A stretch of DNA of 34,852 bases from Stramenopiles sp. TOSAG23-6. Taxonomy: Eukaryota > Sar. The notes under the pieces were generated by a model. It was not told the origin of the DNA and searched no databases. It was given only the letters and a program-made list of their open reading frames with translations. Shown here piece after piece: positions 3,196-34,852 of the stretch (positions within the stretch are counted from its first letter, which is position 1; each line of letters begins with the position of its first letter). The translations under genes were made by a program, and so were the position numbers. Location: contig LT635949.1 of NCBI GenBank assembly GCA_900128565.1, forward strand, positions 1-34,852, written 5' to 3'.

Positions 3196-5392
3196 TCATG
3201 CTCTCCCTGGACATTGAAACCCGTCGGGTCCACAAGCAACATTGTCATCTACACGGTATGTAAATCCTGGGTTTTCAACAGGCCAGACATGACTTCCACC
3301 AGCTGGCATTTTTGGAGCATCAACACATTCAGTACATTTCTTTTCTGGGTCTAAAGTTACTTTTACTCTTGCTTGATGATTACAACAAATACCTAAAACA
3401 TTCCATGTTGATGTCATTTTTTCTGGTTGAGAGTTAAAATCACCATCAATTGCATTTGTTACAATTTCCAACTCAACTTTTTCACCATTTCGAAGTTTTT
3501 CTTTTACATGATCCGGTAAAGCAATTTTTTGCTGAAACTGTTGCCATGCCCAGTGACTTCCCATGCCGGATTGAGGATTTGATCTCATAGCACAATTAGC
3601 AGAGTCTGGATTTTTGGCACGATCATTTGGTCTTTGAATAACCAATTCTCTCTTACTTCTTGGTATTCCGATGGGTCCACTAAATAACTCAGCAGCTTGA
3701 TAAGAATCACCTCCATCAATAGATACTTCAACACGACATATCCCACGACCACCTCCAGACCAAGCTACACCCTCTACAGTTACACTATCCATTTGACCAG
3801 ATAAAGTAGCTCTATCAGGAGGTTCTGAAATGACAGACTGGACAGGTAAAGTTTGAATTACAGGACCTTGATCGAGTCGAAGTTTATCTTCTCCTTCACG
3901 TATGTGACCTTTAAATGTTACATCTGGTGCAAAATGACGATCAAGTTTTGATCCAGAGTCCAACTCTGACGGAGCTTCAGTCAAAATAATTCTAGAAACC
4001 CACTTCACATTACGACAACCAGCATGTCCTGGAGCTAAGAGACGAATAGGGTATCCATGATCACGTGGTAGAGTTTCATCATTCATCTCATACGCAAAAA
4101 TTGTGGAAAAATATTTAAAAAAATAAAAATCGTTAGGTAAAAAATTTTCTTTGTAAAAACTTTGAAATTTTTTAAGTGGACAACATACAAGAATTGCATC
4201 ACCAAATGGATTTACTACTTTTTCAATAGGTATTACTCCAGCATACGGTGTCCCAGTCTCATCCTGGTCTTCTCCAATAAAATTTACTATTTTCACTTTA
4301 GAATGAGAAACGTTTCCTAAAGCCATATATTGTGAAAAAATATGTCGTACGTTTGAAATTTGTTAGGTACGAAAATTGGTACAAAAGAAAATAAATTTGA
4401 AATTAAGTGATAAAAACATACATACCATCTACATCTAAACCTGCAACACGAAATATATCTCGAACTTTTACACCCACCCATTTTGCACAACCAATTGCAC
4501 CACCGCGCCAATGAGGTGCGACATATAAAGGGCGATCAGGGGTGACATAATCTTCTTGTCGATTTCCAGCGCATTGTAAAGCAGATACGACTTCATGTCT
4601 GGGAAATTTAGTCTTGAGATCTGCAAGAGTTAGTTTTAATTCTTTCGTTCCTGCATCTTCATTTGCTTCAATCTCTAAAACATAATCTTCAATATCAACG
4701 CTGGGTACAGGATTATGATTACGTACAAAAAATAAGTCATTTGGAGTTAAAAAATCATTCACCAAAGCTCTAAGTGGCGGTTCCATATTCCAAGGTTTCG
4801 TTGATGGTATGCGCATTTCTGTTGCTTTTGGCCTTTCTGGATCATCCTTGTATGCATCTTCAAATTGAGACTCATTTTTGACAATGATGGCATCTTCAGG
4901 GGATAAACTACCAATCCTATAGTCTTCGAGTAACTCACGAATGTGAGGTCGGTCATGGATTTCGTGATATACCCGCCAAAAGGCATGCAAATCTTGACCA
5001 GAAACCATCATGATACGCATAGCACCACCAGGATGAGCATCCATAAAGTTAGTGACATCATAAACACCACCATTGAGACTGACCCAAACGCGACCTTCAG
5101 GTGCGTTGCGAAACTCGTCCAAGGAGAAGATTCGGTTCAATGTACCTTCTGGAGGAGCTCCACCCGAGCCAAAGGTTCCTGCAACAGGGGCATCATCACT
5201 AAAAGTATTTTGGTTGCTCACAACTGCTGCCGCGAAAGCAGCTGATCCTGCTGCTAATCCATATATACCAAATTTACGGAAATTTGACCTAGGAGGAGAC
5301 ACAATATAACTTAAAGAACGACTTCTCGGTAAAGATAATCTAGACCTTGATGCTGAAAGGTGTAGTCTGTATCCACTATGTCGTAACAACAT
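3196..5392 (-). CDS. SUOX: sulfite oxidase, heme/Moco type, three exons
   Basis: Oxidises sulfite to sulfate. Exons under the preferred model are 5392-4422, 4324-4189 and 4095-3196, giving 668 residues. Residues 1-40 are Arg/Ser-rich and are followed by a hydrophobic stretch (42-60), a bipartite mitochondrial leader pointing to the intermembrane space as in animals. Cytochrome b5 domain 87-163 has HPGG (120-123) and a second candidate heme His near 146. The Moco domain starts near 204, with the molybdenum-ligand Cys at 274 in ALQCAGNRQ, and continues through LPRDHGYPIRLLAPG. The dimerisation domain includes TSTWNVLGICCNHQARV. A Cys-containing tail of about 50 residues follows the usual family end. 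GVKVRDIFRVAGLDVDG ends exon 1. The two introns belong to the introner-like family described separately; exon borders are therefore the main uncertainty. The ATG at 5392 is the natural start because the leader follows it. Confidence 0.93.
4096..4188 (-). repeat. introner-like intron copy C (sulfite oxidase intron 2)
   Basis: On the minus strand the insert starts GTATGTTG after codon CTT and contains TTTTACCTAACGATTT (branch-like) and ATATTTTTCCACAATTTTT ending at 4096. Removing it joins DAIL to AYEMNDE, the conserved sulfite oxidase sequence. The nearest downstream AG (4088-4087) would delete the conserved AYE. The insert itself is open in frame (adding CCPLKKFQSFYKENF and so on), so retention would not cause a stop, but it interrupts a conserved strand of the Moco domain. 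Copies A, B and D share the same layout. Confidence 0.8.
4325..4421 (-). repeat. introner-like intron copy B (sulfite oxidase intron 1)
   Basis: Minus strand: GTATGTTTTTATC at 4421, then AATTTCAAATTTATTTT, a TACCTAACAAATTTC branch-like box inside a TCGTAC/GTACGA inverted repeat (plus-strand 4345-4372), and ATATTTTTTCACAATATAT ending at 4325. This border yields VDG-MALG-NVSHSK in frame. An ordinary GT-AG alternative also works: 4425 to 4317, ending in TTTAG, yields VDG-NVSHSK. The sequence alone cannot choose between them. Confidence 0.8.
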
Positions 5393-5758
5393 TGATGATT
5401 TTTAATGATATTGTAGAGGTCTACACGAGGTTTTGACTAAATTATATACAGGATACAATGTTACAAAATGAATCGATTTTGAAAAGACACCAAAAATTTT
5501 TATGATTGTCGTCAGGTCAGGTAGATTTATTTATTTTTGTGGTGATCTCTTGAAGAAGACGACCGAAGTGTTTCAAGTTTGAATTCAAAAAAAGAAAGTT
5601 CCTGAAATTTTTGGTACGGAATATTGCTATGAAAAAATTAGCTCGCTCTCCATTTATTCATTGTTGGTGCCAGGACAATTTTCAAAAGAAGGAGTAAAGA
5701 AAATATTTGTTTTTTTACCGGTGTGTGAATTTCTCACAAAAGGAAAGTTCTTGTGGAA
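5393..5758. other. divergent intergenic region, sulfite oxidase / claudin-like gene
   Basis: 366 bp between two divergent start codons; it must hold both promoters. It is AT-rich with homopolymer runs. I see no convincing TATA box, RNA gene or repeat in it. Confidence 0.5.
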
Positions 5759-6437
5759 ATGAAAAATCGTGCAAAATTAGGAGTAGCATTATTATGTGCA
5801 TTAGTTGGATTTTTGATTTCCATAGTGGGCTGTATAGTTCCCTGGTCAAGAACGAGTTCAACCGTTGGAGGTTGTCGTTTCACAGGAGAATATGGTGTTT
5901 TGCAAATGTGTCTCGATGTGGAGTGTCCCGCAATAAAACAATATCGTTCTTGCGAGTCTACGACGAATGCACTAAAAGATTGGAGTGGTGAAGGGAAAAC
6001 TGCTTTTTCAAGAACAACATATGGCGCTCTCGCTTTATCTATAGTACGTCAAAATCCTTATCTCCCACCCTAACCCTAATCTCCCATACATTTCAACCAT
6101 ACCTAAAAAAAAATGATAACAATATAAAAGTCTTTCTATACACTAACAAAATTACAAATGCTTCCATTTACAATAACTAAAACAGCTTACCGTCACATTA
6201 TCAAGTATATGTATTGTACTAAATGTATTTTCACTGAGTTGCTCACCTGGACCTTGCTGGAAATGTGTTCACAGTTTTCTTGGTATACTCGGTGCGATAA
6301 CAGCAGGAACAGCTGTTATTCTTGCAAACGAATCCAATATTCTCCTTGTATTTTCTACATCTAACTCCAACCCTAATATTGTATCATATCTATTTGTATT
6401 CATTTTTGTTATTATTGATATATTGTCGACATTGTAG
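5759..6437 (+). CDS. claudin/PMP22-like four-TM membrane protein, two exons
   Basis: Exon 1 is 5759-6043 and exon 2 is 6186-6437, joined in phase 0 through a GT-AG intron (GTACGT...AAACAG), giving 178 residues. The ATG at 5759 (MKNRAKLG) is used because the open frame upstream of it has only a GTG. Four hydrophobic helices lie at about 7-29, 88-112, 124-142 and 156-178. The first extracellular loop has W29 followed by G46-V-L-Q-M-C51 and C56, resembling the W-GLW-C-C pattern of the claudin/PMP22 fold. The join makes one continuous TM2 (LALSI + LTVTLSSICIVLNVF), good support for the splice. Paracellular sealing would make little sense in a protist, so the role is open: perhaps a surface or endomembrane tetraspan protein. 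Stop TAG at 6435. Confidence 0.75.
6044..6185 (+). other. ordinary GT-AG intron in the claudin-like gene
   Basis: 142 nt, donor GTACGT, acceptor AACTAAAACAG, with a CACTAAC element about 40 nt upstream and AACTAAAACAG at the end. It restores one hydrophobic frame over 84 codons downstream. It carries a double telomere-like repeat (CCCTAACCCTAA at 6068-6079). It lacks the ATATT box and overall similarity of the introner-like family, so two intron types coexist in the window. Confidence 0.7.
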
Positions 6438-6501
6438 AATAAACACTACACCTTTAAAGGAATTCACGTAACAACATTTAGTCCGTACATTAGTTTTTAT
6501 T

Positions 6502-6638
6502 CTATGTGTTGTGTTTCTTTTCTTTTAACGTGTAGTGGTTTGCTAACATGGCATGCCAATTTAAGAAAAAATAATCCAGAATATATTCCAGCTTTTCAAT
6601 ATGCACAGTTTCAGCCTTAAGTGGAGTAGAAAATGAAA
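6502..6638 (-). CDS. possible terminal exon of an unrecognised gene
   Basis: On the minus strand, after an AG (TTATTCAG) at 6639, the frame reads VSFSTPLKAETVHIEKLEY and continues to a stop after KEKKHNT. Composition is protein-like rather than homopolymer-driven. Upstream lies a copy of the introner-like family (6639 to about 6749), and before it a short frame ILPLKIDEG (about 6750-6776). No ATG-led first exon could be assembled convincingly, although ATGs occur near 6960 and 6915. It could be a real small multi-exon gene, a decayed pseudogene, or chance. I do not recognise the protein. Confidence 0.3.
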
Positions 6639-6749
6639 CTGAATAATGAGAGAAAGATGAAAAAAACCTAAGTTTCTTTAGGCACAAAATTTCGTATGAA
6701 AAAAATAAATTTGATGAGTGTACAGTTGAAGAAAATATTTTTACCAAAC
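6639..6749 (-). repeat. introner-like intron copy E
   Basis: The minus strand contains TCAAATTTATTTTTTTCATA, then CGAAATTTTGTGCCTAAAG and AAACTTAGGTTTTTTT. It is clearly similar to copy A in ThrRS, including the CCTAA...TTAGG hairpin (plus 6667-6682; copy A 11279-11294). Unlike A-D it ends in a plain CATTATTCAG. The donor is uncertain: GTTTGG at 6749 keeps a single frame, GTAAAA at 6744 does not. It flanks the possible exon 6502-6638. Confidence 0.6.
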
Positions 6750-7005
6750 CTTCATCAATTTTCAGTGGAAGAATCTCCTATATAATAAAAAAAATAATAT
6801 TTGTGTAAAGTTCTTTTTGTTTTACCTTTATTATAATCACAACATCTTATTACTTTATATGAACAAATTTTACGTTTTGTTGTGCTTTCCGGTACAAAAA
6901 AATGTGTTTTTCATAATTTTCTAATAATTAGAAGTATAAAGTAGCAATATCGTCTTGCATGAACTATCACTCTTGTGAATAATAAATTTATAAATTTGTC
7001 ATACA
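6750..7005. other. AT-rich stretch with possible minus-strand exon fragments
   Basis: Between the uncertain exon and the CGR1-like gene. Short minus-strand open pieces exist (ILPLKIDEG at about 6750-6776; YEKHIFLYRKAQQN at about 6856-6900) with candidate splice sites, but no consistent gene model emerges. Confidence 0.3.
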
Positions 7006-7557
7006 TTATTCATAAATACCTACAATTTCAACAGAACCATCTGCATTCACACGGGTTTTCTTAATCCGTTTCAACTGCTTTTTACTCATTTTCTTAATTT
7101 TTTCAACGTTTGTTATAGTTTGATAAGAACTATTTTTAAGCTCGTTTAGTTTTCGCCGTTTCTCTTGTTCCGCTCTTCTTTCTCTCTCTGCGACACGTTT
7201 TAACCTTTTTTTCTCTTTGATTTCATTTTCTAAAGTTTTCATTTGTTTCCTCAGTTTGTTTGCTGCTTGTTTCTTTTCCCATAAAGCTTTACTATTTGCT
7301 ACTTTTTTCCTACCTGCGGCAGAAGATCGACGTGGTTGCTTCCGTTTCCAATGACGATCACTGACACACTTACCAATAGTTTTATTAGTGGATACATCAA
7401 TCGCAGCAACAGATTGAACTGCGTATGGTCTTGGTAATACTTTACCTGTACTTGCTTTAACATCACATAGTGTTCCATCAGGAAATTTTCTCTCTCGATA
7501 TGTAGGTGTCTTGGTAACTTTGGCAGTCACGTTATCCTTTGAAGTCACTGGAGCCAT
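7006..7557 (-). CDS. CGR1/CCDC86-like ribosome biogenesis protein
   Basis: 183 residues, complete, from ATG 7557 to TAA. A WKRKQPRRSSAAGRKK stretch lies near residue 70, then an unbroken Lys/Arg/Glu coiled coil (about 85-145), then the family-like end KIKKMSKKQLKRIKKTRV and a short DGSVEIVGIYE tail. The charged helix followed by KMSKKQLKxIKK is the pattern of the Cgr1/CCDC86 family, nucleolar proteins needed for 60S rRNA processing in yeast. The N-terminus contains FPDGTLCDVKASTGKVLPRP. Family assignment rests on the C-terminal half; role from established family knowledge. The region upstream (7558-7944) is a divergent promoter shared with the coiled-coil gene. Confidence 0.65.
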   Translation of the reverse strand: MAPVTSKDNVTAKVTKTPTYRERKFPDGTLCDVKASTGKVLPRPYAVQSVAAIDVSTNKTIGKCVSDRHWKRKQPRRSSAAGRKKVANSKALWEKKQAANKLRKQMKTLENEIKEKKRLKRVAERERRAEQEKRRKLNELKNSSYQTITNVEKIKKMSKKQLKRIKKTRVNADGSVEIVGIYE

Positions 7558-7944
7558 GATGTTATGAATTGTATTTTAACTGAAGAATGTATTTAAGTAT
7601 CTCTCTACTATAATATACTTTTGGAGTGGGTCGTAATGTCACAATAACTTCTTGGTGGCGGGGAATCCCAATACTTTCTTGCAGGAATAGTACTTTTCAA
7701 GATGTAGAGTGTGTGTGACTGTTCTTAATTAAACTGGATAGATTTTGAATGTTACCGGGTACGCAAAATGTAACGTCCTGAAATCTGACTACCTCTTTAT
7801 CTATCTATATCTCGTTCCAAACATTTATGTGGTTGGTATAACACAGAAAGTAGTTTGCACCAACGTAATAATGTACTATTTCACCAACATTACCAAATAA
7901 TAGACACAATACAATTGTTCTATATAGACAAACAAAATCATATT
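7558..7944. other. divergent intergenic region
   Basis: 387 bp between divergent starts of the CGR1-like and coiled-coil genes. It contains a GC-richer patch around 7655-7675 (GGTGGCGGGGAATCCC) in otherwise AT-rich DNA, a possible promoter element. No RNA gene or repeat recognised. Confidence 0.4.
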
Positions 7945-9048
7945 ATGACATCAAGGTACCTTCCACCAGACATAACTCACTCGACAACAACAAAAAACTT
8001 TCAAAAAAATCATTTTCGTTTATTAGAGGTTTTGGAGGCTACTGTACTAGAAAATGAGGCATTGAAGACTGAAATCTACAATATACACACTAGAGCCATT
8101 GAGACTATTAAAGAGGAGAATAAAAAACAGAAACTTTACAATATTGATAAACAAATCCTTTTGGAAAAACATAATACCTCATTGTCAAAGGAGATAAATG
8201 AGAAAGGCGACTTACAGCAGAAACTAGACATACTTAAAGAAAACCTAAGAATGCATGAAACAAAATTCTTTACTAAGCAAAATGAATGGCATGCAAACAC
8301 AAAGACACTTAGTGACGAAATTTCTGATTTGCGAAAAAAGCTTTGTAATAAAGATAAAAACATTGAAAAGTTATTAGAAAAAGTGAAAAAAGATAAAAAA
8401 AAACACAAGGAAAAAAATTGTTTATTATGTGAAAAAAAATCACAAAAGTTTCTTCTTCTAAAAGAAAGCAATGCCACATTAGAATTAGAGATGTCTAACT
8501 TATTGGTTCAATATAATAGTGTTGTAGACATAAAAAATGAGTTAGACTTTGAGTTAAAAGAAACATTAGAAAAGTTTAAAAAAACTGAAAAGGAATTGAA
8601 AATATTACAGATAGAAAAACAAAAATTTGAAAAAGAAGTAAAAAGATTACGCTTAGAAAAACAAAATTGTACATCAAATTCAGAATCTTCAAAAAACAAT
8701 GCTACATTGTCTAGTATCCCACCTCCACCAAAATTTCAAAAACATAATAACTATAAAGGAACAATTACAGGTGCTAGAATAAAAGAAAGTCAAATTCTTG
8801 GGGAATTAGCCTCTTTAAAGAATGAAAATTTCCACTTGAAACAGAAAAAAGGATATTTTGGAATACGCCATTTACGTGAAACAAAAATGACGATGAATCC
8901 ATTTGCGGAACAGGAATCAATGTATACATCTAAAATATCACTAAATAGTATGACAACTAAGTCTAAGAGAAAACATGAACGCTATAGCGATAAAAATGTT
9001 ACAAACATTGTAGGGAGTAAAATACTAGACGAATTACTACAACGATGA
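7945..9048 (+). CDS. coiled-coil protein
   Basis: 367 residues from the first ATG (7945, MTSRYLPPDIT); the frame is open further upstream but without ATG. Residues from about 20 to 240 form a long Lys/Glu/Leu-rich heptad coiled coil (LLEVLEATVLENEALKTEIY, LEKVKKDKKKHKEKN), with a small CLLC pair in the middle. A Pro-rich break (SIPPPPKFQKH) follows, then a shorter helix and a basic tail ending KILDELLQR. The layout resembles cytoskeletal or basal-body coiled-coil proteins, but low-complexity coiled coils match many families. Function not assigned. Confidence 0.75.
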   Translation: MTSRYLPPDITHSTTTKNFQKNHFRLLEVLEATVLENEALKTEIYNIHTRAIETIKEENKKQKLYNIDKQILLEKHNTSLSKEINEKGDLQQKLDILKENLRMHETKFFTKQNEWHANTKTLSDEISDLRKKLCNKDKNIEKLLEKVKKDKKKHKEKNCLLCEKKSQKFLLLKESNATLELEMSNLLVQYNSVVDIKNELDFELKETLEKFKKTEKELKILQIEKQKFEKEVKRLRLEKQNCTSNSESSKNNATLSSIPPPPKFQKHNNYKGTITGARIKESQILGELASLKNENFHLKQKKGYFGIRHLRETKMTMNPFAEQESMYTSKISLNSMTTKSKRKHERYSDKNVTNIVGSKILDELLQR

Positions 9049-9254
9049 TTTAGATGTGTGAAAATTTTATATGAGAAAAAACATCCAAGTAAGCAAATAA
9101 TTGAAAACCAATTTATTACATTTCATCATAGCGTTTTTGAAAGTAATAAAACATAAATTAAATTGTAGTTTTTAATTTGGTACATTGACAAGCATCATGA
9201 ATAAAATAAAAGAATTGGTATATGGTCATTTATGCAATTACTTTACACACTGAT

Positions 9255-12200
9255 TTATGAAATTGGAGCGTCTGCCAAATTACTACGACATGAACCAGCA
9301 GTAGTTAGTAATGGTTTTCCTTGCCACGTAGCAACACATTCATCATTCGTTTTCAAATCTTTTGCCATTGCTTCCCACAATTTTTTCTTCTTCACTTGGC
9401 TTTTTGTTGCTGGAGTACCACTCAGTCCTTCAATAAATATGCGCTCACCATTCGCTGCACCAACAGGAGGTTCCACAAATTGAACTGCGTCGCCTAGTTT
9501 TGCACATAATACCATTCCCTCACTAGTCACACCAGCTAATTTTGCAGCTTTCAAATTTGCAACTACCAATACTTTTCGTCCTTCCATATCACTTACTTCT
9601 GGATAAAACTGTCGAAGACCTGAACTGATTGATCTCATACCAATTTCTGCTCCTAAGTCAATTTCTTCACACCATAATTTTTCAGAATCAGGATTTGGCC
9701 AAGCCTTTGTTATCGTTCCAACACGTATGTCAATCTTTGTAAATGAATCTTGATTTGGATCAGATGCTACCTTTTGCTTTTTCTTTCCTTTATTAGCATT
9801 TTTGTCACCTTTTTGAATGAGTTTTGCAGCTTCTAGGAGAGCAGATGGTTGTTGAGGTTTATCACAACATTCTTGCTTCATATTAGTAATTATTTGTTCA
9901 ATCGTTTTAACTTCTTGTCCATTTGTACCACGAGGACGAACCGCAGCCGACTTAATTGACATCTCAGCATCGCCAACTATTAAAATATAGTTATATTGAG
10001 CTAGAGACGCCTCACGAATTTTTTTTGGAAACTGTTTTGATGATAAATCTACGGAGACATGAAATCCAGCCATGTGTATTTTCTCCTTTACACTTCGAGC
10101 ATAATCATAATGAGCTTGAGCAATAGGGACAACCATAACTTGACGTGGGCTTAACCAAAGCGGCCATTTCCCACCATAATGCTCAGTAAGTATTGCAAAC
10201 ATTCGTTCAACAGACCCAAGCATTGCACGATGAACCATAACTGGTCTTTGAAACCCAGGAGCAGCTTCAGGATTTGAATTGGGTAAATTTTTATAAACAC
10301 CGCGACAAGAGGAGGATGATTCTGATTTCTTTTTTTGTTTCTTTTCTTTGGATTTTTCATTATCTGATTTTCGAATTTGTTCACCTGTACGATATTGTAA
10401 ATCGAAACGAATAGGTAGATTAAAATCTAATTGTACTGTAGCACACTGATGAATTCTGTCCATACAGTCAAATACTTTAATGTCAATTTTAGGACCATAA
10501 AATGCACCATCCCCAGGGTTATCTTTCCAATTGCCTTTTCCAGCAAACTCATCTAAAGCATTTGCTAATGACTCTTCAGCATCATCCCATCGTTTAAGTC
10601 CTTCAGGAGTATCAGCACCAACTGCTTTTTTAGGTCGAGTACTACGCTCAAGTTTAAATTTCATACCAAAAATAGAGTATACAGCTTTCATAAATTGAAG
10701 TGAACCAACAACTTCATCTTTCACTTGTTCAGGGGTGCAAAATATATGTGCATCATCTTGCTGGAAACGTCTGACACGTGTCAATCCAGTTAATGCACCA
10801 GAACGTTCATTACGATGTAAAACACCAAAATCAGCCATTCTGATGGGCATTTCTCTGAAAGTTCTGATTTGTTGACGAAACATTAAACAATGTCCAGGAC
10901 AATTCATTGGCTTCAAGGCAAATTCATCCTGATCACTTGTATTAAATAAAAACATATCATCTCTGTAGTGCTGATAATGACCTGAAATTTTCCATAAATC
11001 AGTTGAAAAAATATTCGGTGTAACAACTTCATCATAACCGCGCTGCCAATATTCATTTTTTATGAAATCGATTAAAGCATTGTATATACGAGCACCATGA
11101 GGAAGAAAGAAAGCTGATCCTGGAGTTAAATCATGAAAGAAAAATAATTGTTGACGAGGCCCAATGCGACGATGATCATTCATTCTTTTCAATTCCATCA
11201 CAGCTTTCCATTTTTTCATTTCTTTTTTATCAGGGAATGCAACACCATGTATTTTGGAAAAATATTTCAAAAAAAAAACCTAACATTTGTTAGGTACAAA
11301 ATTGCGTACGAAAAATAAATTCGAAATTGAAAAAAAATAAAACATACATATACACGCTGTAGTGAGTCACATTTTTCATCACCCATCCAATATGTTGCAC
11401 TATGTTTTATAACATCCATACACGTAATTGAAGAGGTTGTAGGCACGTGTGGTCCCATACATAAATCAATAAATGGTCCATTTTTGTACACTGTCGTAAA
11501 TGTATTATCTGTGACTTTTGTTCTTATAATTTCTAATTTAAAGGGATTATACTCAAACAACTCAAGTGCTTCAGCTTTAGAAACAATCATTCTTTCAAAC
11601 ACTTGTTTTTCTTTAATTGTTGTAGCATTTCTCTTGCTTAGTACCTGGTACCACTTTTCTTCTGTGACAACGTCTTTACCTACAAAAGCATCATAATAAA
11701 AACCATTTTTTAGTGGAGGACCAATGGTCAAGACAGCACCGAATTCACGCTCCATACTTTGACCTAGAATATGAGCTGCAGAGTGCTTAAATGTTGTTTT
11801 ACCCTCTGGTGTACTGTAATTATGAAAAATAATGTCACAATCGCCTTCTAGTGGTCTATTTAAGTCCCACAACTCAAATTCTTGTTTCTCACTGGCGGTA
11901 GTTGTATCCATCTCGTCTCCACCAGCCTCAGCCATCATTTCTTCTTCAGCGTGTGTCACAATATCAGCACCATATCTTACACCAGTATAGCGAACTTCTG
12001 CAACAAGTTGACGTTTAGCCATTTGTTTTGAAATGTTTAATGCAATCATCATTGGTGTAGTTTCCCACGTTGTTCCAGGGTGAGTCTTCTTATCTGGCAT
12101 GGTGACTGTCATTGCCTCCCGTGGTTTTTCAAGAAGACGTTTTTCATACGCAGCTTTTACACGATTATATACATCTTCACGAGCAGCAATAAACTGTGGC

Positions 12201-12397
12201 GATTTACACCCAGAATAAGAATCGCCTCCAATTTTACCTTTAGATTGAAGAGTATGGACTTGACCTTCGACAGCACGGTCTTTGTTGACACGACCTAATG
12301 TGCTCTGGAGCACATGGACATCCCCACTGCTCACTTTCAAGCGAGAAAGTTCTGCTTCCAATTCAGCAATACGTTGATCTCTTTCGTTTGGCGTCAT
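9255..12397 (-). CDS. threonyl-tRNA synthetase fused to a C-terminal EMAPII-type tRNA-binding domain
   Basis: Charges tRNA-Thr. Exon 1 is 12397-11348 (350 codons) and exon 2 is 11246-9255 (663 residues plus stop), total 1013. In order: short N-terminal coiled coil (MTPNERDQRIAELEAELSRL), TGS domain (about 90-145), editing domain with HSAAHILG, catalytic core with NCPGHCLMF, the RRFQQDDAHIF motif and MVHRAMLGSVERMF, anticodon-binding domain (RQVMVVPIAQAHYDYA). A lysine-rich linker leads to an OB-fold domain (IDIRVGTITKAWPNPDSEKLW, EGMVLCA) typical of EMAPII/Arc1p/MetRS C-termini. A Lys/Ser-rich insert of about 35 residues sits before the third class-II motif. The exon join RVY-GVAFPDKKE restores the conserved family sequence. 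It is a cytosolic-type enzyme; no targeting leader is seen. Confidence 0.93.
11247..11347 (-). repeat. introner-like intron copy A (ThrRS intron)
   Basis: 101 nt on the minus strand: GTATGTTTTATT after codon TAT, then AATTTCGAATTTATTTTTC, GTACCTAACAAATGTTAGG (hairpin, plus 11279-11294), T10, and ATATTTTTCCAAAATACAT ending at 11247. The conserved ThrRS sequence lies on both sides right up to the borders (SLQRVY and GVAFPDKK), so the join is fixed by homology, yet the intron end has no AG. An AG alternative at GTTAG would insert 11 residues (VFFLKYFSKIH); the next downstream AG destroys conserved sequence. Confidence 0.85.
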
Positions 12398-12624
12398 TTT
12401 GCACTACCAAAGATAAGACAACAATCTGAGAATTTACTCAAAAGAATAATTGGATTATTGTTTATTACCTATGCGCGAGTAAGTAGTATATACTGCGTGC
12501 GTGCGTGTTTACGATACACGTGTGTGAGTGGTAGCTGAACTAGTTTTTTTGCCATTATTGGCCCAGCAGTTTTGTGCCAATTGAAAAGAAAAAAAAAAAA
12601 ATTTTATTGTTTTACAATAATGTT

Positions 12625-14106: not shown

Positions 14107-14538
14107 TTTATGGGGTATACTCTATCTCGATTTATTGATATTTCTTATCACAGCTGTAGCAACTCATTAGAAATGTATACAGCAGTACGATTATTCATAC
14201 TGAGCAAATATCAGGACATTACTTGAGTAGTGCATGCGGTAGTTCTATTGTTTTATTTCATTAATATAATCTATAGATCATAGCTTCTACAGCAATAGAT
14301 TGTAACTATCTATACGTAGTAGTAAATTTCTCCGACTATTAATGTTCTACTACTATTAATGTTCTACTACTATTAATATTGTATCTAGTCCAAACGGAAC
14401 TACTAGCTAGAGAACGGTCTGTCCGTTACGAAGACGTTCCGAATTTTGAAATCCATATTCCTATTTATAAATCATTTGAAAACAAAGCCACAAAAAAAAA
14501 AGATGATCAATTATTTTTCAAATTCAAATTTATTTTCA
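14107..14538. other. intergenic region upstream of the CDPK
   Basis: 432 bp between the CDPK start and the end of the large SAM/IQ protein, both on the minus strand. Apart from the 17-nt tandem repeat at 14335-14380 I see no gene or RNA in it. Confidence 0.5.
14335..14380. repeat. 17-nt tandem repeat, about 2.7 copies
   Basis: ACTATTAATGTTCTACT is repeated at 14335-14351 and 14352-14368, with a partial third copy from 14369. It lies in the spacer upstream of the CDPK gene. Confidence 0.9.
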
Positions 14539-20500: not shown

Positions 20501-21405
20501 AAATTACTTCTATGACTCCTTGCTTTTTGAGTTAATTCATGAATTTGAGATCTCACAGAAACATCTTCCACAATACTATTATTATCAATATTCTGATCAC
20601 TGTCAATGTTATTTTTACTACCAGTAGGAGATGTAGAACCAAAAAAAGAACCACTATAAAGACTTTTCGATGTATGTATTGATTCGCTATTTGTAGTCGT
20701 TTTCAATATTTTGTCTATTGTTTCGCCAATTATTTCGATTTCTTCTTCTAAATTTTTTATCGCAATGAGTGAATATTGTAATGCATCATAATGCTGTTGA
20801 TTTGAAGCCAATAATGAACTCATATTTAGTGACGTAACTGCAATCAATGGCCGACATCCTACACCATTTTTTATAGAATCACTTTCCATATTTTTATGAC
20901 CATCTGGTAAAGAACTTGCTATAGAATATGCTCTATCCAAGTGTTTCATTGCTAGCTTTGGTTGAGCAATCAACTGATAAAATAGAGCGAAATTATTGCT
21001 AGTAGTCACGTGTGCTCGACCAACGTTAGCGTAAAGATACATTTTCTTCTCTTTCATGGCGGTATTGTTAAAAGAAGGGGAAGCTAAAGAAGAAGGAATT
21101 ATTCCAGTAGTGTTTTGATCATTCCAAGGTGGCAAAATTGACGCAGCTTCGACTAAATATCTACGTATCAATTGATATTTTGAAGCATTGCGACGCTCTA
21201 TATATTGTCTAGCAACATGATTTAGGTGCTCTGTAAGTAATAAAGTTTGAGATATCGTATTTATAGACTGAAGACCGCTTTCTTTACGAACAAGTAGCAA
21301 AGATCGCTTACTTTGTTCAATCGACTGTTCTAATTTCCCTTTATTCCACAAATCAGTAGCTTCATCTTCACTTTGTTGAACTGACTCGCTTTGTACACCA
21401 TGCAT
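14539..21405 (-). CDS. large SAM / IQ / EF-hand protein with low-complexity repeats, possibly flagellar
   Basis: 2288 residues in one exon. Residues 1-340 are helical with TPR-like stretches (LAMKHLDRAYSIAS; RVSEAKAMHEQALAIH). Acidic 8-residue repeats of type NNNTIDVE follow (about 363-420), then a Lys-rich heptad-like repeat (about 472-540). RPFSA, RRPYSA and RRPQTSSA motifs lie near 838-988. A SAM domain with an insert spans about 1030-1125 (FLSSLNMSSFISKFWQHNI, LGIRRVGDRLRLKHAL). EF-hand DINNDGYVEWTE is near 1330; a 14-residue NIQKTVKNDIHDN repeat is near 1505-1553. IQ motifs are near 1565-1660 (IQIQSIGRGYLTRN) and 1770-1815 (AIVIQSTYRAAKTRN). Degenerate EF hands, Asn/Asp repeats and a final canonical EF hand (DTDGDGYMTANE) follow. 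IQ plus EF plus RPxSA motifs suggest a calmodulin-binding axonemal or basal-body scaffold; that is inference. Confidence 0.8.
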   Translation of the reverse strand: MHGVQSESVQQSEDEATDLWNKGKLEQSIEQSKRSLLLVRKESGLQSINTISQTLLLTEHLNHVARQYIERRNASKYQLIRRYLVEAASILPPWNDQNTTGIIPSSLASPSFNNTAMKEKKMYLYANVGRAHVTTSNNFALFYQLIAQPKLAMKHLDRAYSIASSLPDGHKNMESDSIKNGVGCRPLIAVTSLNMSSLLASNQQHYDALQYSLIAIKNLEEEIEIIGETIDKILKTTTNSESIHTSKSLYSGSFFGSTSPTGSKNNIDSDQNIDNNSIVEDVSVRSQIHELTQKARSHRSNLVIAYHSHGSQLEKLGRVSEAKAMHEQALAIHLSDNLLTQTNADKSIVSETLQKAVLNSESVTNNTIDVENNDTIDVENNNTIDVENTDTIDVENNDTIDVENNNTIDVENNNTIDNENDNSTDVAKNTTDSDNTKYVDPRPMRGLDALQQNIPNWKKYIIESNSNDMETSIKKLKEKKSPVKQVKSSVKPIKSSIKQTKSPIRQRKTLIQQTKSPIKYKAPLKYTKVPMKQIKTPMFDKVNNQLGDFTPVKSSADDVLNKNGTIHFAVTPDINHSNVMSQSLSLITEVKANTDWHKKQQKSMLKELGKSYLDEKTVNQRYKVFRNKIFKKRTKVKKKSKDLQKKRNKKKAHTNNDSFVPPLKTSWNNIHKSRIPVKGPDGNMHDAEFLVPQTLLVGPRVGKNGNNENPYMTIMAMDKPVSTPDITSLSLNVPPEYEKTTASHINKSTKETKGKSTEETKGKNEQLKTPDSSFIKLTDTSRRQCSPIRRADYNRFMSRIQNKNIAKHHSSGMGKAIKNNIEPMGIKIKKKSTKKKIIRKPRPFSAVHKKQSNKYKRRPYSAKPTRYTSQQRTINERDSSINIRTALQSPYQYSNEKQNPYTLLLLRNHGDPSSANLKYLENFLKLSTVEIERKIRQKPNVKTTKSYSLMDRKNNSKKNGKERKIYVPRKGTNIPLGRRPQTSSALISKKNSRKIKSASGARRVASLQRHDAQTLPPSVEPSVEPSPSVVHPRDVIVEMFLSSLNMSSFISKFWQHNITSDALLAMKASILGTDIDDRKGIIGDQTKNILHNEKVGSERDVYIDHILSTKLGIRRVGDRLRLKHALAGFHVEDWSEEAVNLRKVALLKKDKLQNLKIINLDENAPSTEQFPQSTQDNINENDNSRYSTIFGDYEDVLTSALLPAIARISQNAKSMKSLKFSVLGQLRVSELRPIWQSYNKDGKGKLQINHAVDMFTMIFLYMKKCIGACRKYQKLRNQIIEINKQTEYGEIPNYDRIKDTVNLYVKSLSNEIMDEWQMQSKLDAEMTVTVTDINNDGYVEWTEIINSHTGLLGHDTDILQVESTEKKIKSSAKQKKQNKKKIKSIKSTKNKEKNNVEKIVPVRHQRLKRTKQKQRLKSRSKTEETEAPKLKQRNAIVKSAQSEQKSRNQTEEKAESEKKSEKKLKKIKKVKEKSALKSALKSDLPVPYPGRSPQAKKRIQSIQNTCDNNNIQKTMKNDIHDNDNIQKTVKNDIHGNNSIQKTVENDIHDNNNYLDSSDYITSAIQIQSIGRGYLTRNIGKKLKQHEQKQTIAAIRLQSFHRGRLTRGTLCTRNKAALLLQRIIRASAVRKDMLHKNRSALQIQTYARIVIACRKVATIKIERKREGDYQRKTACARYDIKKGHNDSMKVLQKSEAIKRGNVVVAVVDLNSNTPNELNTINDLASGSSIEYDDDERVDQKGNKNKKHKTHKNASQIIGQTCHKYILRTHARLKVAVTLQALYKQYDKKRTINNHNNAAIVIQSTYRAAKTRNFVKMKKRASRGGGRVGFADDKINAARLERDRLRGQYTQEIELAIARQKAQKARRTRKIRLHSPTNVTFSLDSTKDMTDESKQKTTINNTIDKNDDTIDTNELLQKLSSGAAFLRVRGINMRKLLRCTDSIDPMKRVGALPTKTFCKVLTPILMDFLSLPEINQLAKNFDTFNSGMVSYEDFVTCSLDIKYKTKFNKLEICSVRKIQKMVRLKRNILIATTAYADKINNVDNDNNIEVNNDMGSIDNNNNMNAIENNDLIDIDNNNIMHDIDDTNINQNDFFLDFSQEIENVKERARNRAAIVIQQHVRNQQNKNDSTDTNNDTIDINNNNIDTNSYTVDINNNNNIENINNIDTNSYSVDVNNNSIENNNDSIDTNSDSSYDENEEKYDPHEILDAMTQQERLEFKWKTSFNLCDTDGDGYMTANELKHWLCGLGHEVDIYDARELLDIGSGGNGSGKLTFTAAKGILLGLGGESST
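14830..15010 (-). repeat. coding Asn/Asp/Ile tandem repeat (period about 66-69 nt)
   Basis: Encodes repeated TNSYTVDINNNN-type units near the C-terminus of the large protein. Lengths remain multiples of three. Confidence 0.75.
16745..16893 (-). repeat. coding 42-nt repeat
   Basis: Encodes about three copies of NIQKTVKNDIHDN just before the IQ cluster of the large protein, with few substitutions between copies. Confidence 0.8.
19785..19985 (-). repeat. coding Lys-rich short repeat (KSPxKQxK type, about 21 nt)
   Basis: Encodes SSVKPIKSSIKQTKSPIRQ and related units with Lys, Ser/Thr and Pro at regular spacing. The pattern resembles basic microtubule- or DNA-binding tails with S/T-P phosphorylation sites. 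Confidence 0.75.
20147..20314 (-). repeat. coding 24-nt minisatellite, seven units
   Basis: Plus-strand unit TTCTCAACATCTATAGTATT plus ATTA, seven consecutive copies with single-base differences, encoding NNNTIDVE-type octamers in the large protein. The period is a multiple of three, so copy-number change keeps the frame. Confidence 0.92.
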
Positions 21406-21715
21406 TATTCTAATATATGACTGTGCATATATCTATAATCAAATGTTAAAGCAAAATGGAGAAAGTGAATACAATTCAGAACAGAACCTTGCGTATAACA
21501 ACGTGGTAGTAAACTATTAGTAATTTTTACTCTAGCTACTGGTACAAGCCTAATAACACTATAACGCTAATAATTGGTAACGGCCAAAAAATAAACGGAT
21601 GAACAAACCGAACAAACCTGTTGTTCTCTTCGATTTTGAAATTGAATGAAATGAAATGAAAGAATTCAATTTGATTTACTTTAGTTGATCTTTTACTAAT
21701 GCCAACATCAACACA
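21406..21715. other. divergent intergenic region
   Basis: 310 bp between the large SAM/IQ protein and the small basic protein, divergent starts. AT-rich; a short ATGAAATGAAATGAAA run lies near 21645-21660. No other feature recognised. Confidence 0.4.
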
Positions 21716-22306
21716 ATGGATCGGATAACATGCTCACAGGAGGAAGAACACATTTCTTCATCAGATGATGATCTTCCAAGTCTTGCAAATAGACTACGTT
21801 GCAAAATGTCATCAAATATTTCTTTCTTAGTTGTATCGTCAACAATAGCTGACCTTCAAACAAAAAATGGCGAGAAAATCGTCACTGCACTATCGAAAGC
21901 ACAGCGAAGAGCATATCGAAAAAAAGCTCGACAGGATAACTTACGGAGTACTCAGTACAATGTTGATATTACAAAAAGTGGAAAAAATTTAAAGAAAGAA
22001 AATAAATTTAGCCTGAATATAGATGAGAATCATAAGAAAACAAATTATAATAAAAGTGTGGTGAAGACAACTTTGCCATCTAGTGTGTCAAGTGTACCTA
22101 AAGCATTACACGCCAAACGTCCCGTAATCTCTACCATTGACAGTGAACCAGCCATAAAAAGACAAAAAGCAAAAAATGCAATAGATTCAAAATTAACAAA
22201 AAGTGCAATAGATTCAAAATTAACAAAAAGTGCAATAGATTCAAAATTAACAAAAAATCCATGGTCACTATCTCTACTAAAGGGAAAAAAAAAAGTTGCA
22301 AGTTAA
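21716..22306 (+). CDS. small basic protein with three 9-residue repeats
   Basis: 196 residues, complete, from ATG 21716. The N-terminus is acidic (EEEHISSSDDDLPSLANRL), followed by a strongly basic helix ALSKAQRRAYRKKARQD (about 59-75), a Lys/Asn-rich middle and three near-identical AIDSKLTKS units (about 155-181). The end is NPWSLSLLKGKKKVAS. I do not recognise the family; composition suggests a nuclear or nucleolar protein. The last 17 codons and following bases are duplicated exactly, inverted, at the right edge of the window, so a paralogue or segmental copy exists. Confidence 0.65.
   Translation: MDRITCSQEEEHISSSDDDLPSLANRLRCKMSSNISFLVVSSTIADLQTKNGEKIVTALSKAQRRAYRKKARQDNLRSTQYNVDITKSGKNLKKENKFSLNIDENHKKTNYNKSVVKTTLPSSVSSVPKALHAKRPVISTIDSEPAIKRQKAKNAIDSKLTKSAIDSKLTKSAIDSKLTKNPWSLSLLKGKKKVAS
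22178..22258 (+). repeat. coding 27-nt tandem repeat, three units
   Basis: Units at 22178-22204, 22205-22231 and 22232-22258 encode IDSKLTK-type nonamers; they are nearly identical at the DNA level, so the expansion is recent. Confidence 0.93.
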
Positions 22307-22319
22307 AGTAAAAAAGACG
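22254..22319 (+). repeat. inverted duplicate, copy 1
   Basis: 22254-22308 is identical base for base to the reverse complement of 34798-34852 (55 nt, including a run of ten A). With a one-base indel the similarity continues about nine nt more, then stops. Copy 2 is cut by the window edge. Confidence 0.95.
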
Positions 22320-22389
22320 AAAGAGATCGGACAACCATTTTTTCTTCTCTAAAAGAAGAACACTAACTATACTATATACATTTTTGATT

Positions 22390-24456
22390 TTATAAACGAC
22401 ACCTAATCGTTTCTTGAATTCTATAATTCTGTTTTTCATTATACTGCTGCTCTCTTTTTCCAGTAGTAGTTTTATATTTAATTCCCAAGTTGCCGACAGC
22501 AAAAACATTCTGTGGATCAACAGCACTCTTGAAACCAGACAGCATATTCATGCCGACATTAGAAATAACTCGTGGCATCCATTTTTGTCGTATCTTACCG
22601 ACACCATGATGATGCGACAAAGCACCACCACACGCCAATACTTGATTTCGTGCGTTTGTCTCTATTGTTTCAAATAAATGAATCACTTCTTCTGCAGCCT
22701 CTTTTTCGTGCTTTCCTCTTTTCTTAAATTCATCAAAAACATGTCCAAATGGCATGGCCACATAAAAATATATAGCAGCCCCAGACGCATATGTTTGAGT
22801 CACTCGACAACATACAAATGGATCACCTGGAATACCTAAAGTGGAAAAACTTTGAGCAATATTCTGCTTCACTAATGTACACAACTCATTCACTCTTCCC
22901 CAAGGAACTGAAGTTTCAAAACTTTCAGCCAATAAACCATAATTCATTCCAAAATCTCTAATGTAAGCGATTAAATACGTAAGTAAATATCCGCGCATAC
23001 CATTCTCACTGCCACCATTCATTCCACCATATTTTTTAACAATACTAAAAACATTTCTTTGTTGTTGACGAACCTGATCGCCAGTGCCCTCAAAAAGAAG
23101 AGTCATTGCCACCATTTTTTCTGGGTTAAAGCCTTTATATTTCGTGACATAAAACTTTTTTGCTGAATCAACAACGTGATCATATAGAGGAGTCGCACTC
23201 GTAGGTTTCATTACTCTACCAAGTTGAAATTGTAAATTATCCATTAATCGTATTGAAGCAGGTTTGTTTGTCGCCGATGAAGATACATTGGCTACTTCTT
23301 TCATGGCAGAAACCCCAGCTTCAAATGATGGAAAAATAACCGAACCATACTCACATACTGCAGGCAATTCTTGTAATTTAACCACACATTCTGTAATAAC
23401 ACCAAACATTCCTTCACTACCTATAATCATTTCTATCATATCTGGACCAGTAGACACTCTACCTCCTTCACGACAGGTAAGTTCCAATGTCCCCGTTGAA
23501 GTTACAACACGTACATTAAGAATAATATCTTCAATATTGCCATACTTATTTTTCTTCATTCCTGATGCCCTTGTAGCAACCCAACCACCCAACGTCGAAA
23601 ACTCCGATGAATCAGGCTCATGACCTAACTTTAACCCTAATTGTGAAAGTTCTTCCTCCAGTGAAATACCAACTGCTCCAGCCTGAATTTTTGCCGTCAT
23701 TGACTCACGATCTATCCATAAAATATTATTCATTTTTTTCATATCAAGTACAACAACCATGCGACCTAAGGATTGATCCGACATACATTGAAGCGCCCCT
23801 GTAACGTTGGTACCCCCACCATACGGGATAATACATACGTTATGAGTGATTGCAGCTGTAACAATAGCTACGACATCTTCATGTGAACGAGGGTAAATTA
23901 CACAGTCAGGTGCAATGTGATACTGTTTTACGTTCTTCGTTGCAATATTTGAACTTTTCATATTTGATTTATCACGGTCTAAATCTGAAATCACAGAAGA
24001 AGGACCGGAAGGATAATCACAAGGAGTTCCCCATCGTAAATTCATCATCTCTTCTGAAGTTTGACCGTGAGAGTGCTTTAATCGAACTTTGTTATCTATA
24101 GATATTGCACCAAAACAAGGAGAAATTGCACCTCTTTCAGGTTCGTCGATGCAAATTTCCCCTAGTTCAGTGACCCCAATGGCTCCCAAAAATTGTTTAT
24201 TCAAATATGGAACAGGAAGAACAGGAGGTCCAGATCGACCTTTGTTTGGATTATTTAGATCCATCATAGGAAATCGTTCCTTGATAAAAGAGATAAATTT
24301 TGGAAGTACACGACCAGCAGAAAATATAGAGGCAAAACGCTTACCAGTGATATAAATAGAACTTGATGCTGAAGAGGCAGTACCATCGACAGCAAATGCT
24401 GTATCTTCGAAACCCCAACCATTCCAACGCTCATGGTCTGACATCTTGTGTATCAC
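22390..24456 (-). CDS. AGPS: alkyldihydroxyacetonephosphate synthase, peroxisomal (PTS1)
   Basis: Exchanges the acyl chain of acyl-DHAP for a fatty alcohol, the ether-bond-forming step of ether lipid synthesis. 688 residues from ATG 24456 (a second ATG lies four codons on). The FAD-binding PCMH domain begins at DCVIYPRSHEDVVAIV and includes IIPYGGGTNVTGALQC, GHEPDSSEFSTLGGWVATRA, SGMKKNKYGNIED and GSEGMFGVITE. The C-terminal substrate domain has FYVTKYKGFNPEKM, RGYLLTYLIAYIRD, ESFETSVPW, CRVTQTYASGA and the active-site LSHHHGVGK. The protein ends in CRL, which fits the PTS1 consensus [SAC][KRH][LM]; the human enzyme uses an N-terminal PTS2 instead. Length and domain order match the family. 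Confidence 0.95.
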   Translation of the reverse strand: MIHKMSDHERWNGWGFEDTAFAVDGTASSASSSIYITGKRFASIFSAGRVLPKFISFIKERFPMMDLNNPNKGRSGPPVLPVPYLNKQFLGAIGVTELGEICIDEPERGAISPCFGAISIDNKVRLKHSHGQTSEEMMNLRWGTPCDYPSGPSSVISDLDRDKSNMKSSNIATKNVKQYHIAPDCVIYPRSHEDVVAIVTAAITHNVCIIPYGGGTNVTGALQCMSDQSLGRMVVVLDMKKMNNILWIDRESMTAKIQAGAVGISLEEELSQLGLKLGHEPDSSEFSTLGGWVATRASGMKKNKYGNIEDIILNVRVVTSTGTLELTCREGGRVSTGPDMIEMIIGSEGMFGVITECVVKLQELPAVCEYGSVIFPSFEAGVSAMKEVANVSSSATNKPASIRLMDNLQFQLGRVMKPTSATPLYDHVVDSAKKFYVTKYKGFNPEKMVAMTLLFEGTGDQVRQQQRNVFSIVKKYGGMNGGSENGMRGYLLTYLIAYIRDFGMNYGLLAESFETSVPWGRVNELCTLVKQNIAQSFSTLGIPGDPFVCCRVTQTYASGAAIYFYVAMPFGHVFDEFKKRGKHEKEAAEEVIHLFETIETNARNQVLACGGALSHHHGVGKIRQKWMPRVISNVGMNMLSGFKSAVDPQNVFAVGNLGIKYKTTTGKREQQYNEKQNYRIQETIRCRL

Positions 24457-24726
24457 TCACCACCAGAAATATTTAACGCAAAGACAATACTGTGGCAAAA
24501 TAATTGTGTGTGTCTACAATTTTCGTCTCTGCTACGTATTTCTTTTCATTGACATTTTTTTTGTGTGAATATTTTCGAAGTTCCTCAACAACACGAAAAC
24601 AAACGAAAAAAATGAAAAAAAACGAATTCAGGAACGACATCATCTTCTTGATTTGAAAAAACAAGGTTCTCTTCTTTTATGTAAACACTACCTTCAGTCA
24701 AAAACATAAGAACAACTTCAAGAATT
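24457..24726. promoter_or_regulatory. divergent promoter region, AGPS / membrane protein
   Basis: 270 bp between divergent ATGs; it must contain both promoters. AT-rich, no distinct element recognised. Confidence 0.4.
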
Positions 24727-25975
24727 ATGGCGAAGGGACATGGTCTTAATTCATGCTACTTGGCAATTTATTATGCAACGTTATCAATAGTTTGGTTAAG
24801 CTTAGCAGTATATGCTTCATTATTTTACGAAACTTATGAAGAAAACTGTTCCGCGACTTGTCCGCTTGTTACTTTAGATGTTGCCTATGTTAATGAAAAA
24901 ATTGCAGCAGGGGACCAAAGAGTAATAGACTTCTATGGTGGTGCAACATATAATAATGATCCAATTAATACAGTATCTTCAAAATTTTGTTACAGATCGG
25001 GGGCAATATGTCTTAAAAAACCTGAGACCGATGGACAATTGCGTAACCAGTGCGAAGTTTACAGTGAAATTTATAATCTGACAGCAGCAGACGCTTGGAA
25101 ATACAAGTGCTTGATTTGCGATGAAACCAATCAGTCTAGAGTCTTATGGCCTTCTTTAACAACATCACTAGAGAGTTTTTGGAACGTAGCACAACCTTGC
25201 GGCGAAGTAAGTATAGTACCTGGAATACCAGAGACGGATATCCCCACAGCGCTTTTTCCAGATATGCCAATCGACTCTCGTCAAGAAAAAGGCTATTTCA
25301 GGTATCCATTCGGTGTAGGCGATTATACAATGTGTTATAACTTTGATGAACCAAGTGATTTCTGGATTACTGTAGCAAAATTGTCTCTTAAAATTTCTAT
25401 TTATATTTTTTTCATTAATTCAACTTTAGGTTTACTATCAGCGGCGATACTGGCAACGTTTCATAAAGTACTTTTAAGCGATTGGAATAGACTGTCACTT
25501 CCCAAGCAATGTGCTTCATACTTATTGACAATTATGATGAAATTACTTAAAATTTCATGGTTGATTGGTTTCTGCGTTTCCTTTATTGCTTTAGGTACTA
25601 ATGGATTGGATAAAACTTGCGTTTTTCAAGAAACTGAATTAGGGTCCGTTGATGTTTATCCAAAGGCAGAAGCGTTTTGTTGGGCCTCATTTATTTCTTA
25701 TTTATTAGTACTCATCTATCGTAATTTTAGAAGGCAAGATATTGTGTGTTGTCTATTTTAATTTCAAATATATTTTTTTATTGAAAATTTCTAACCTGAC
25801 GAATTTCAAACTTATAACATATTTTCTTACTATACTTATCGGTGATGTGCAGTTTATGTATATACCATATGAACTATCGCCAGTTAGATCTGATGATAAG
25901 TGTGACTGTGGAAGTTTCTATCGTGTTTTTTTACAACCATGCTTTGTATATTTTGAAAAATATGTCGGCCCATAA
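24727..25975 (+). CDS. Cys-rich multi-TM membrane protein, two exons
   Basis: Exon 1 is 24727-25743 and exon 2 is 25838-25975, 384 residues under the non-AG model; an AG alternative starts exon 2 at 25853 for 379. TM1 is residues 12-33. A Cys-rich lumenal loop of about 180 residues follows (CSATCP, CLICDE, VAQPCGE), then TM2 near 222-245 (FFINSTLGLLSAAILATF), TM3 near 278-295 (WLIGFCVSFIALG) and TM4 near 318-335. Exon 2 adds a cytoplasmic tail, MYIPYELSPVRSDDKCDCG through YVGP. Without splicing the frame stops at 25761 inside the intron. Family not recognised; the large disulfide-type loop suggests a surface or secretory-pathway protein. Confidence 0.7.
25744..25837 (+). repeat. introner-like intron copy D
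   Basis: 94 nt: GTGTGTTGTCTATTTT, AATTTCAAATATATTTTTTT, CTAACCTGACGAATTTCAAA and ATATTTTCTTACTATACTT ending at 25837. It is similar to copy B over most of its length. Both this border and an ordinary AG (GATGTGCAG, ending 25852) keep the frame into the 3' exon, so here the acceptor is ambiguous. It is the plus-strand member of the family. Confidence 0.75.
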
Positions 25976-34797: not shown

Positions 34798-34852
34798 CTT
34801 TAACTTGCAACTTTTTTTTTTCCCTTTAGTAGAGATAGTGACCATGGATTTT
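34798..34852 (-). repeat. inverted duplicate, copy 2
   Basis: Exact reverse complement of 22254-22308. It extends to the window end, so its true length is unknown. Confidence 0.95.
34800..34850 (-). CDS. 3' end of a paralogue of the 21716-22306 gene (cut by right edge)
   Basis: The minus strand reads NPWSLSLLKGKKKVAS then TAA, identical in DNA and frame to the end of the gene at 21716-22306. The rest lies outside the window. It ends 56 nt upstream of the SRFK-protein ATG. It could be a full paralogue or only a copied segment. Confidence 0.7.
   Translation of the reverse strand, partial: NPWSLSLLKGKKKVAS

Follow-up and report, generated by a model that had tools for sequence, protein, structure and literature searches.

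Introner-like inserts with non-AG 3' ends in Stramenopiles sp. TOSAG23-6

The inserts and their family

The contig LT635949.1 of Stramenopiles sp. TOSAG23-6 (GenBank assembly GCA_900128565.1) was analysed from position 1 to position 34,852, and this whole stretch of 34,852 nucleotides (nt) is called the window below. It contains a sulfite oxidase (SUOX) gene, a threonyl-tRNA synthetase (ThrRS) gene and a gene with no Pfam match, which between them are interrupted by four short inserts of similar sequence. The initial annotation had described these as related introns that lack a 3' AG, and all four are indeed present where it placed them, on the same strands and with the features it described.

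3196..5392, reverse strand: SUOX gene with cytochrome b5, molybdopterin and dimerisation domains and two introners (identified by Pfam and relatives)
4096..4188, reverse strand: SUOX introner 2, 93 nt, TT closing both exon and intron; TACCTAAC at 4132-4139, ATATTTT at 4108-4114
4325..4421, reverse strand: SUOX introner 1, 97 nt, AT closing both exon and intron; TACCTAAC at 4362-4369, ATATTTT at 4337-4343
9255..12397, reverse strand: ThrRS gene with one introner inside (identified by Pfam and relatives)
11247..11347, reverse strand: ThrRS introner, 101 nt, 5' end GTATGT, AT closing both exon and intron; TACCTAAC at 11289-11296, ATATTTT at 11259-11265
25744..25837, forward strand: diverged introner in the gene without a Pfam match, 94 nt, 5' end GTGTGT, TT closing both exon and intron; TTTCTAAC at 25788-25795, ATATTTT at 25819-25825

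All four inserts share a 5' GTRTGT, a CTAAC box and an ATATTTT box, and in all four the flanking exons join in frame. The copy at 25744..25837 is supported by its frame.

Introners are repeated, near-identical introns that behave like DNA transposons, in which target-site duplications may contribute to the splice sites and the length of the mRNA is usually unchanged (PMC9860276, Gozashti et al. 2022). Pattern searches show that the four inserts are a small part of a very large family. In the source assembly (8.03 Mb, 408 contigs) the pattern GTATGTTN{20,50}TACCTAAC has 663 matches, against 2 for the reversed-pattern control, and the strict motif pair TACCTAACN{5,30}ATATTTTT has 1,548, against 0 for its control. 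No match to the family was found in the viral and prokaryote collections searched. Some contigs in the match lists are palindromic (mirror-image) or near-duplicate (C2, C4 and C37; C13 with C14), which is a typical leftover of single-cell whole-genome amplification. Because duplicated contigs inflate the pattern counts, the number of independent copies is smaller than these counts.

Copies were collected from the window and 82 loci (numbered L), nearly all of them selected for holding copies, which overlap in part and together amount to 303,794 bases out of 8.03 Mb. The 5' end was set at GT (GTAYGT) and the 3' end at the end of the best match to YCAMAATAYAT. Of 130 copies, 115 have a recognised 5' site, and 110 of these have a good end motif and enough flanking sequence. 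Copies sit in unrelated conserved genes, and the identity between nearest neighbours in different genes has a median of 0.88, compared with 0.73 for random pairs and 0.55 for shuffled sequences. On the reverse strand of L026 (C13:1-10000) copies cluster within a few kb, some of them nearly back-to-back, and very short exons or tandem boxes separate some of the copies.

The copies have a median length of 100 nt (86-147). The 5' site is GTATGT, GTACGT, GTTTGT, GTATAT, GTACAT, GTATGC or GTGTGT in 84 of the 85 copies that join in frame (see below) and GTATGN in the remaining one; since all search patterns began with GT, the GT start was required rather than discovered. Among 72 copies identified solely from their ends, CTRAY occurs 25-60 nt from the end in 69 (9.0 for shuffled interiors) and ATATTTT in 68 (18.6 for shuffled interiors). 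The predicted branch point A lies a median of 41 nt (33-49) from the 3' end. The copies thus carry two features of U2-type introns, a GT 5' site of the usual extent and a branch-point box, while the third, a 3' AG, occurs in only 2 of the 85. They do not resemble U12-type introns, judged by the generally known U12 consensus and branch spacing, in that the 5' sites are GTAYGT-like and the distance from branch to end is 33-49 nt.

Joins in frame and against relatives

The position of the 3' end was examined by checking whether the codon-scored reading frames on either side of each copy run together once it is taken out. Eighteen of the 110 copies have no clear frame, leaving 92 that can be scored. 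When the intron is ended at the terminal motif, 85 of the 92 join in frame (P ~1.5e-32 against an expectation of one third), and 66 of 70 do so when copies with a close family neighbour are left out.

The initial annotation had placed the end of all four introns exactly 19 nt after the start of the ATATT box and saw a possible signal in a set distance. This is correct for the four inserts and fails as a rule: the end is tied to the element's own 3' box, as had been suggested, and the terminal motif predicts it better than a fixed distance does. When the distance is tabulated it is not constant. In 126 copies with a good terminal motif it is 19 nt in 108, 18 nt in 12 and some other value in 6. 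The eight scorable 18-nt copies follow the motif, which gives the right frame in seven of them, rather than the distance, which gives it in none. The single scorable 20-nt copy agrees with the motif; the single 21-nt copy, a poor match to the motif, agrees with the fixed rule, and the single 25-nt copy agrees with neither. A fixed 19-nt ruler was consequently rejected, being contradicted also by a join in a CHD1-like helicase described below.

Because the frame fixes the end only modulo 3, joins were also compared with related proteins. Eleven joins in nine conserved proteins were chosen by eye as recognisable among the 85. All eleven align with relatives without a gap at the join. Solved structures provide the comparison for PRMT5 (FSDN|ELSPEC), the CHD1-like helicase (an 18-nt copy, joined at DEMGLGKT), serine hydroxymethyltransferase (two joins), an adenosine-deaminase-like protein (LAIH|VGE), ThrRS (LQRVY|GVAFPD), a MATE transporter (LEW|WAFE) and RNA polymerase I subunit 2. 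For sulfite oxidase, five relatives match across the join of intron 1 (GLDVDG|MALGN) and five align across that of intron 2 (DAIL|AYEMN), and for ATP synthase beta the matching proteins are P0241 and P0242. The restoration of the family sequence without gain or loss, claimed initially for ThrRS and SUOX intron 2, therefore holds, and extends to SUOX intron 1.

The duplicated dinucleotide and its interpretation

It had been noted that the four inserts end differently, in ACAT, ATAT, TTTT and ACTT. The reason, absent from the initial annotation, is that the last two intron bases copy the target site. In the 85 in-frame copies these bases are AT in 67, TT in 8, GT in 4, AG in 2, AC in 2, AA in 1 and GA in 1, which bears out the claim of non-AG 3' ends. 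In 76 of the 85 the upstream exon closes with the same two bases (AT/AT 63, TT/TT 8, GT/GT 3, AA/AA 1 and AG/AG 1). The share of AT is biased upward by the search patterns, which favour this dinucleotide at both ends; the duplication test compares pairs and not shares. Against shuffled pairs, matches are in excess at position -1 (79 against 75.4, p 0.002) and at position -2 (79 against 59.7, p 0.0002), with no excess at -3 or at -5 to -8 in the 85 copies. We read this pattern as a 2-bp target-site duplication flanking an element proper of the form GTAYGTTT...CAMAATAY, whose ends form short inverted repeats (GTAT...ATAC) next to the duplicated dinucleotide.

On the basis of these observations it appears very probable, from sequence comparison, that the inserts are a scarless, transposon-like introner family, which the spliceosome excises at an acceptor other than AG. 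Units of about 100 bp, resembling DNA transposons, would enter mostly at AT sites and duplicate 2 bp of the target. The left edge of each would provide a 5' splice site, GTAYGTTT, and a branch-point-like TACCTAAC would lie about 41 nt upstream of the 3' end. Cleavage of the RNA would take place directly before the GT and directly behind the repeated target dinucleotide, and with these cuts the message would regain its form before insertion. The acceptor would then be whichever two bases the target held (AT, TT, GT or others) and not AG, its position being set by the terminal box of the element, ATATTTTTCCAMAATAY plus 2 nt.

A perfect duplication gives the same mRNA from GT...NN and from NN...AY, so the cuts might be slid. 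In an AT-AC type of intron, the cut would lie 2 nt upstream of the GT, with an intron ending in AAUAY, giving a fixed AC or AU 3' end and a variable 5' dinucleotide. This fits wherever the duplication is perfect, and an AT-AC reading is formally open to 42 of the 85 copies. The nine copies in which the dinucleotides differ might separate the two readings; two of them do, and the other seven do not decide. In the MATE transporter copy (L071) the GT reading gives LEWWAFE and keeps the EWWAFE motif (two solved relatives have LEWWSFE and LEWWLFE), whereas the slid reading produces a stop. In L050 the slid reading likewise puts a stop in frame. The copy in RNA polymerase I (L029) was tried as a third such case and gave no decision, two relatives having M at that place. 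Given the stops in L071 and L050, the cut is placed at the GT and the copied dinucleotide is taken as the acceptor. GTAYGT moreover fits the usual 5' splice site, and we consider the AT-AC reading very unlikely, if the least so of the three alternatives to the introner reading.

Slightly less likely again is that these are ordinary GT-AG introns, using an AG shortly downstream of the branch box or one in the following exon, and that their non-AG ends are an artefact. An AG does lie between the branch box and the motif end in 31 of the 85 copies. However, five AG rules were tried and rejected, since all of them join in frame at the level of chance, as against 85 of 92 for the motif end: the first AG at least 6 nt past the branch A does so in 35 of 92, and four further rules in 34, 34 and 35 of 92 and, among copies with a YAG, in 28 of 83. 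In the copy in the adenosine-deaminase-like protein (L025), the nearest AG, 5 nt upstream of the end, would disrupt the reading frame.

ThrRS is a case in which a public gene model corresponds to a GT-AG intron. The window protein, spliced by the motif rule, matches the EukProt protein of P0121 (GSMAST32.ASY1.ANO1.1150.1) at 885 of 888 aligned residues. To judge by this name, the organism, an uncultured marine protist, is probably a stramenopile of the group MAST-3 (marine stramenopile group 3) known from a single-cell assembly. At the introner, the P0121 model has FFLKYFSKIH where the window protein has Y, a gain of nine residues, and this is exactly the product expected from a GTATAT...GTTAG intron at window positions 11280-11353. 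The extra nine residues are absent from the relatives P0122 and P0126. Eight blocks of open frame in the window gene are also missing from the P0121 model. The P0121 gene was thus probably misread by gene prediction bound to GT-AG. Further gene models in the public P0121 protein set may be affected in the same way.

The weakest alternative is removal without the spliceosome, either guided by a hairpin, as proposed for euglenozoans, or by excision at the DNA level. Ciliate internal eliminated sequences have short inverted-repeat ends with a flanking duplication like those seen here. Such ends are also found, in longer form, in introners of Amoebophrya (PMC7789003). Against a hairpin, RNAalifold, applied to an alignment of 81 copies, gave no consensus RNA pair, and the fold z values have a median of -0.66 and fall below -2 in 13 of 85 copies. 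Excision from DNA was set aside on the orientation of the copies: of 42 compared with the coding sequence, 37 are sense, 5 are ties and none is antisense, a bias that DNA excision would not lead one to expect, any more than a 5' splice site and branch box. With no copy among the 42 clearly antisense, the orientation speaks for removal at the RNA level. Removal without the spliceosome is the least probable reading of all.

The agent proposed for the introners is the major spliceosome. Prp8 is present in this genome and closely similar to animal Prp8 across 396 aligned residues, with Q at human position 1522, which we take to be a contact to the 3' splice site. An ordinary intron with GTAAGT, CTAAC and CAG occurs in an FKBP-type isomerase gene (L015), where the join is gap-free against solved structures; by this comparison at least one GT-AG intron is confirmed to exist beside the introner family in the same genome. 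Candidate ordinary introns in L027 and L011 are in frame. A scan for ordinary introns gave 16 of 39 in frame, which is near chance, and hence only single cases are cited here. The window itself contains one probable ordinary intron:

6044..6185, forward strand: probable GT-AG intron, GTACGT...ACACTAAC...ACAG, in frame

Telomere-like TTAGGG/CCCTAA repeats lie within this intron (6060-6090), and also within one introner copy (contig C23:28479-28542).

We give an even chance to a target-blind acceptor rule, by which the spliceosome ignores AG and ligates 2 nt past the terminal box of the element, probably through a dedicated U2AF-like factor, while other introns retain AG. The terminal box would on this rule be what is read, and the simplest proposal for its recognition is a diverged U2AF-like factor, by analogy with the tunicate Fritillaria.

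Several observations weigh against the introner reading as set out here. Removal at the RNA level is deduced from the DNA, and in two of the five orientation ties the antisense score is slightly the higher. Seven of the 92 scorable copies are out of frame and unexplained (L019, L030, L040, L052, L059, L065 and L070). In 22 of the 85 copies the motif end has an in-frame AG no more than 12 nt away, and in those 22 the frame alone consequently does not exclude AG; two of the 85 can be read as GT-AG, and L068, a related copy, keeps the frame with an AG end. Matches at position -4 show a marginal excess (33 against 28.6, p 0.04), where a strict 2-bp duplication predicts none. On the side of the machinery, small nuclear RNAs were not found in this incomplete assembly, one search giving 3 matches, as many as its control, with no positive control, and U2AF1 was not found with one query, again in the incomplete assembly and with no positive control. 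The units would have spread by transposition; no transposase was found, nor any convincing empty site in the fetched loci and the window. Three matches resembling empty sites each fall in their own locus, and are probably tails of neighbouring copies.

It is worth describing the L068 copy further. It lies on the reverse strand at about 1162-1255, and its in-frame end, TATAG, is 2 nt beyond the expected AT-repeat end. It is possibly in transition toward an ordinary GT-AG intron.

An acceptor that copies its target would allow one element to be removed without trace from AT, TT, GT and other sites. If the target-blind rule is true, this would be a mobile intron freed from the requirement for AG at its target, so that each insertion is scarless, and this could explain the spread of the family. 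The family would also provide a natural test of 3' splice-site choice without AG in a genome that has AG introns too, and of the limits on intron gain. For annotation, the consequence is that gene prediction expecting GT-AG misreads such genes, as probably happened in the ThrRS model of P0121.

Comparison with known systems

In the open-licence literature, most subscription papers lying outside the search, excerpts revealed no report on introners in MAST-3. In the text consulted, the main text of PMC5778133 has "intron" twice and no "splic", and PMC8163842 has no "intron" and "splic" once, within the references. Nor did excerpts of the open-licence literature describe a case that combines a constant GT 5' site and a branch box, no hairpin, and an acceptor formed by the duplicated target. 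The claim of a distinctive splicing signal was a fair one, although Amoebophrya (PMC7789003) and Fritillaria (PMC13326754) offer precedents.

The family resembles the introners described in PMC9860276 in being made of near-identical, transposon-like introns in unrelated genes with a target-site duplication. It differs in that those use GY/AG sites, carried or recruited, whereas here the acceptor is the duplicated dinucleotide, and is AG in only 2 of 85 copies. Human TG 3' splice sites (PMC2374985) are a further example of non-AG acceptors in U2-dependent introns, but they are single alternative sites in 36 genes rather than a mobile family. The euglenozoan introns (PMC12621601) have non-GT-AG ends, short flanking repeats and a possible origin from miniature inverted-repeat transposable elements, as might be said of the present family, but they pair end to end, and no such pairing was found here.

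A protist parallel is with the dinoflagellate Amoebophrya (PMC7789003), whose introners likewise have borders other than GT-AG, with direct repeats where exon and intron meet. There, inverted repeats of 8-20 nt form a hairpin, the direct repeats are of 3-5 nt, and U1 was not found. In the present family, by contrast, GTAYGT and the CTAAC box are kept, the repeat is of 2 nt and no structure is seen.

Fritillaria borealis (PMC13326754) likewise has non-AG 3' ends, AU included, and these are handled by the major spliceosome. In this tunicate 95% of introns depart from GT/AG at both ends, U2AF is duplicated, and diverged U2AF paralogues bind non-AG ends, again including AU; introner transposons with weak splice sites are named as a possible source. 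The present family differs in having a GT 5' end and in being a single sequence family. Introners, the non-canonical introners of Amoebophrya and non-AG splicing in Fritillaria are thus all known, and what would set the present family apart is the constant GT 5' site and branch box, without a hairpin, together with an acceptor that copies the target.

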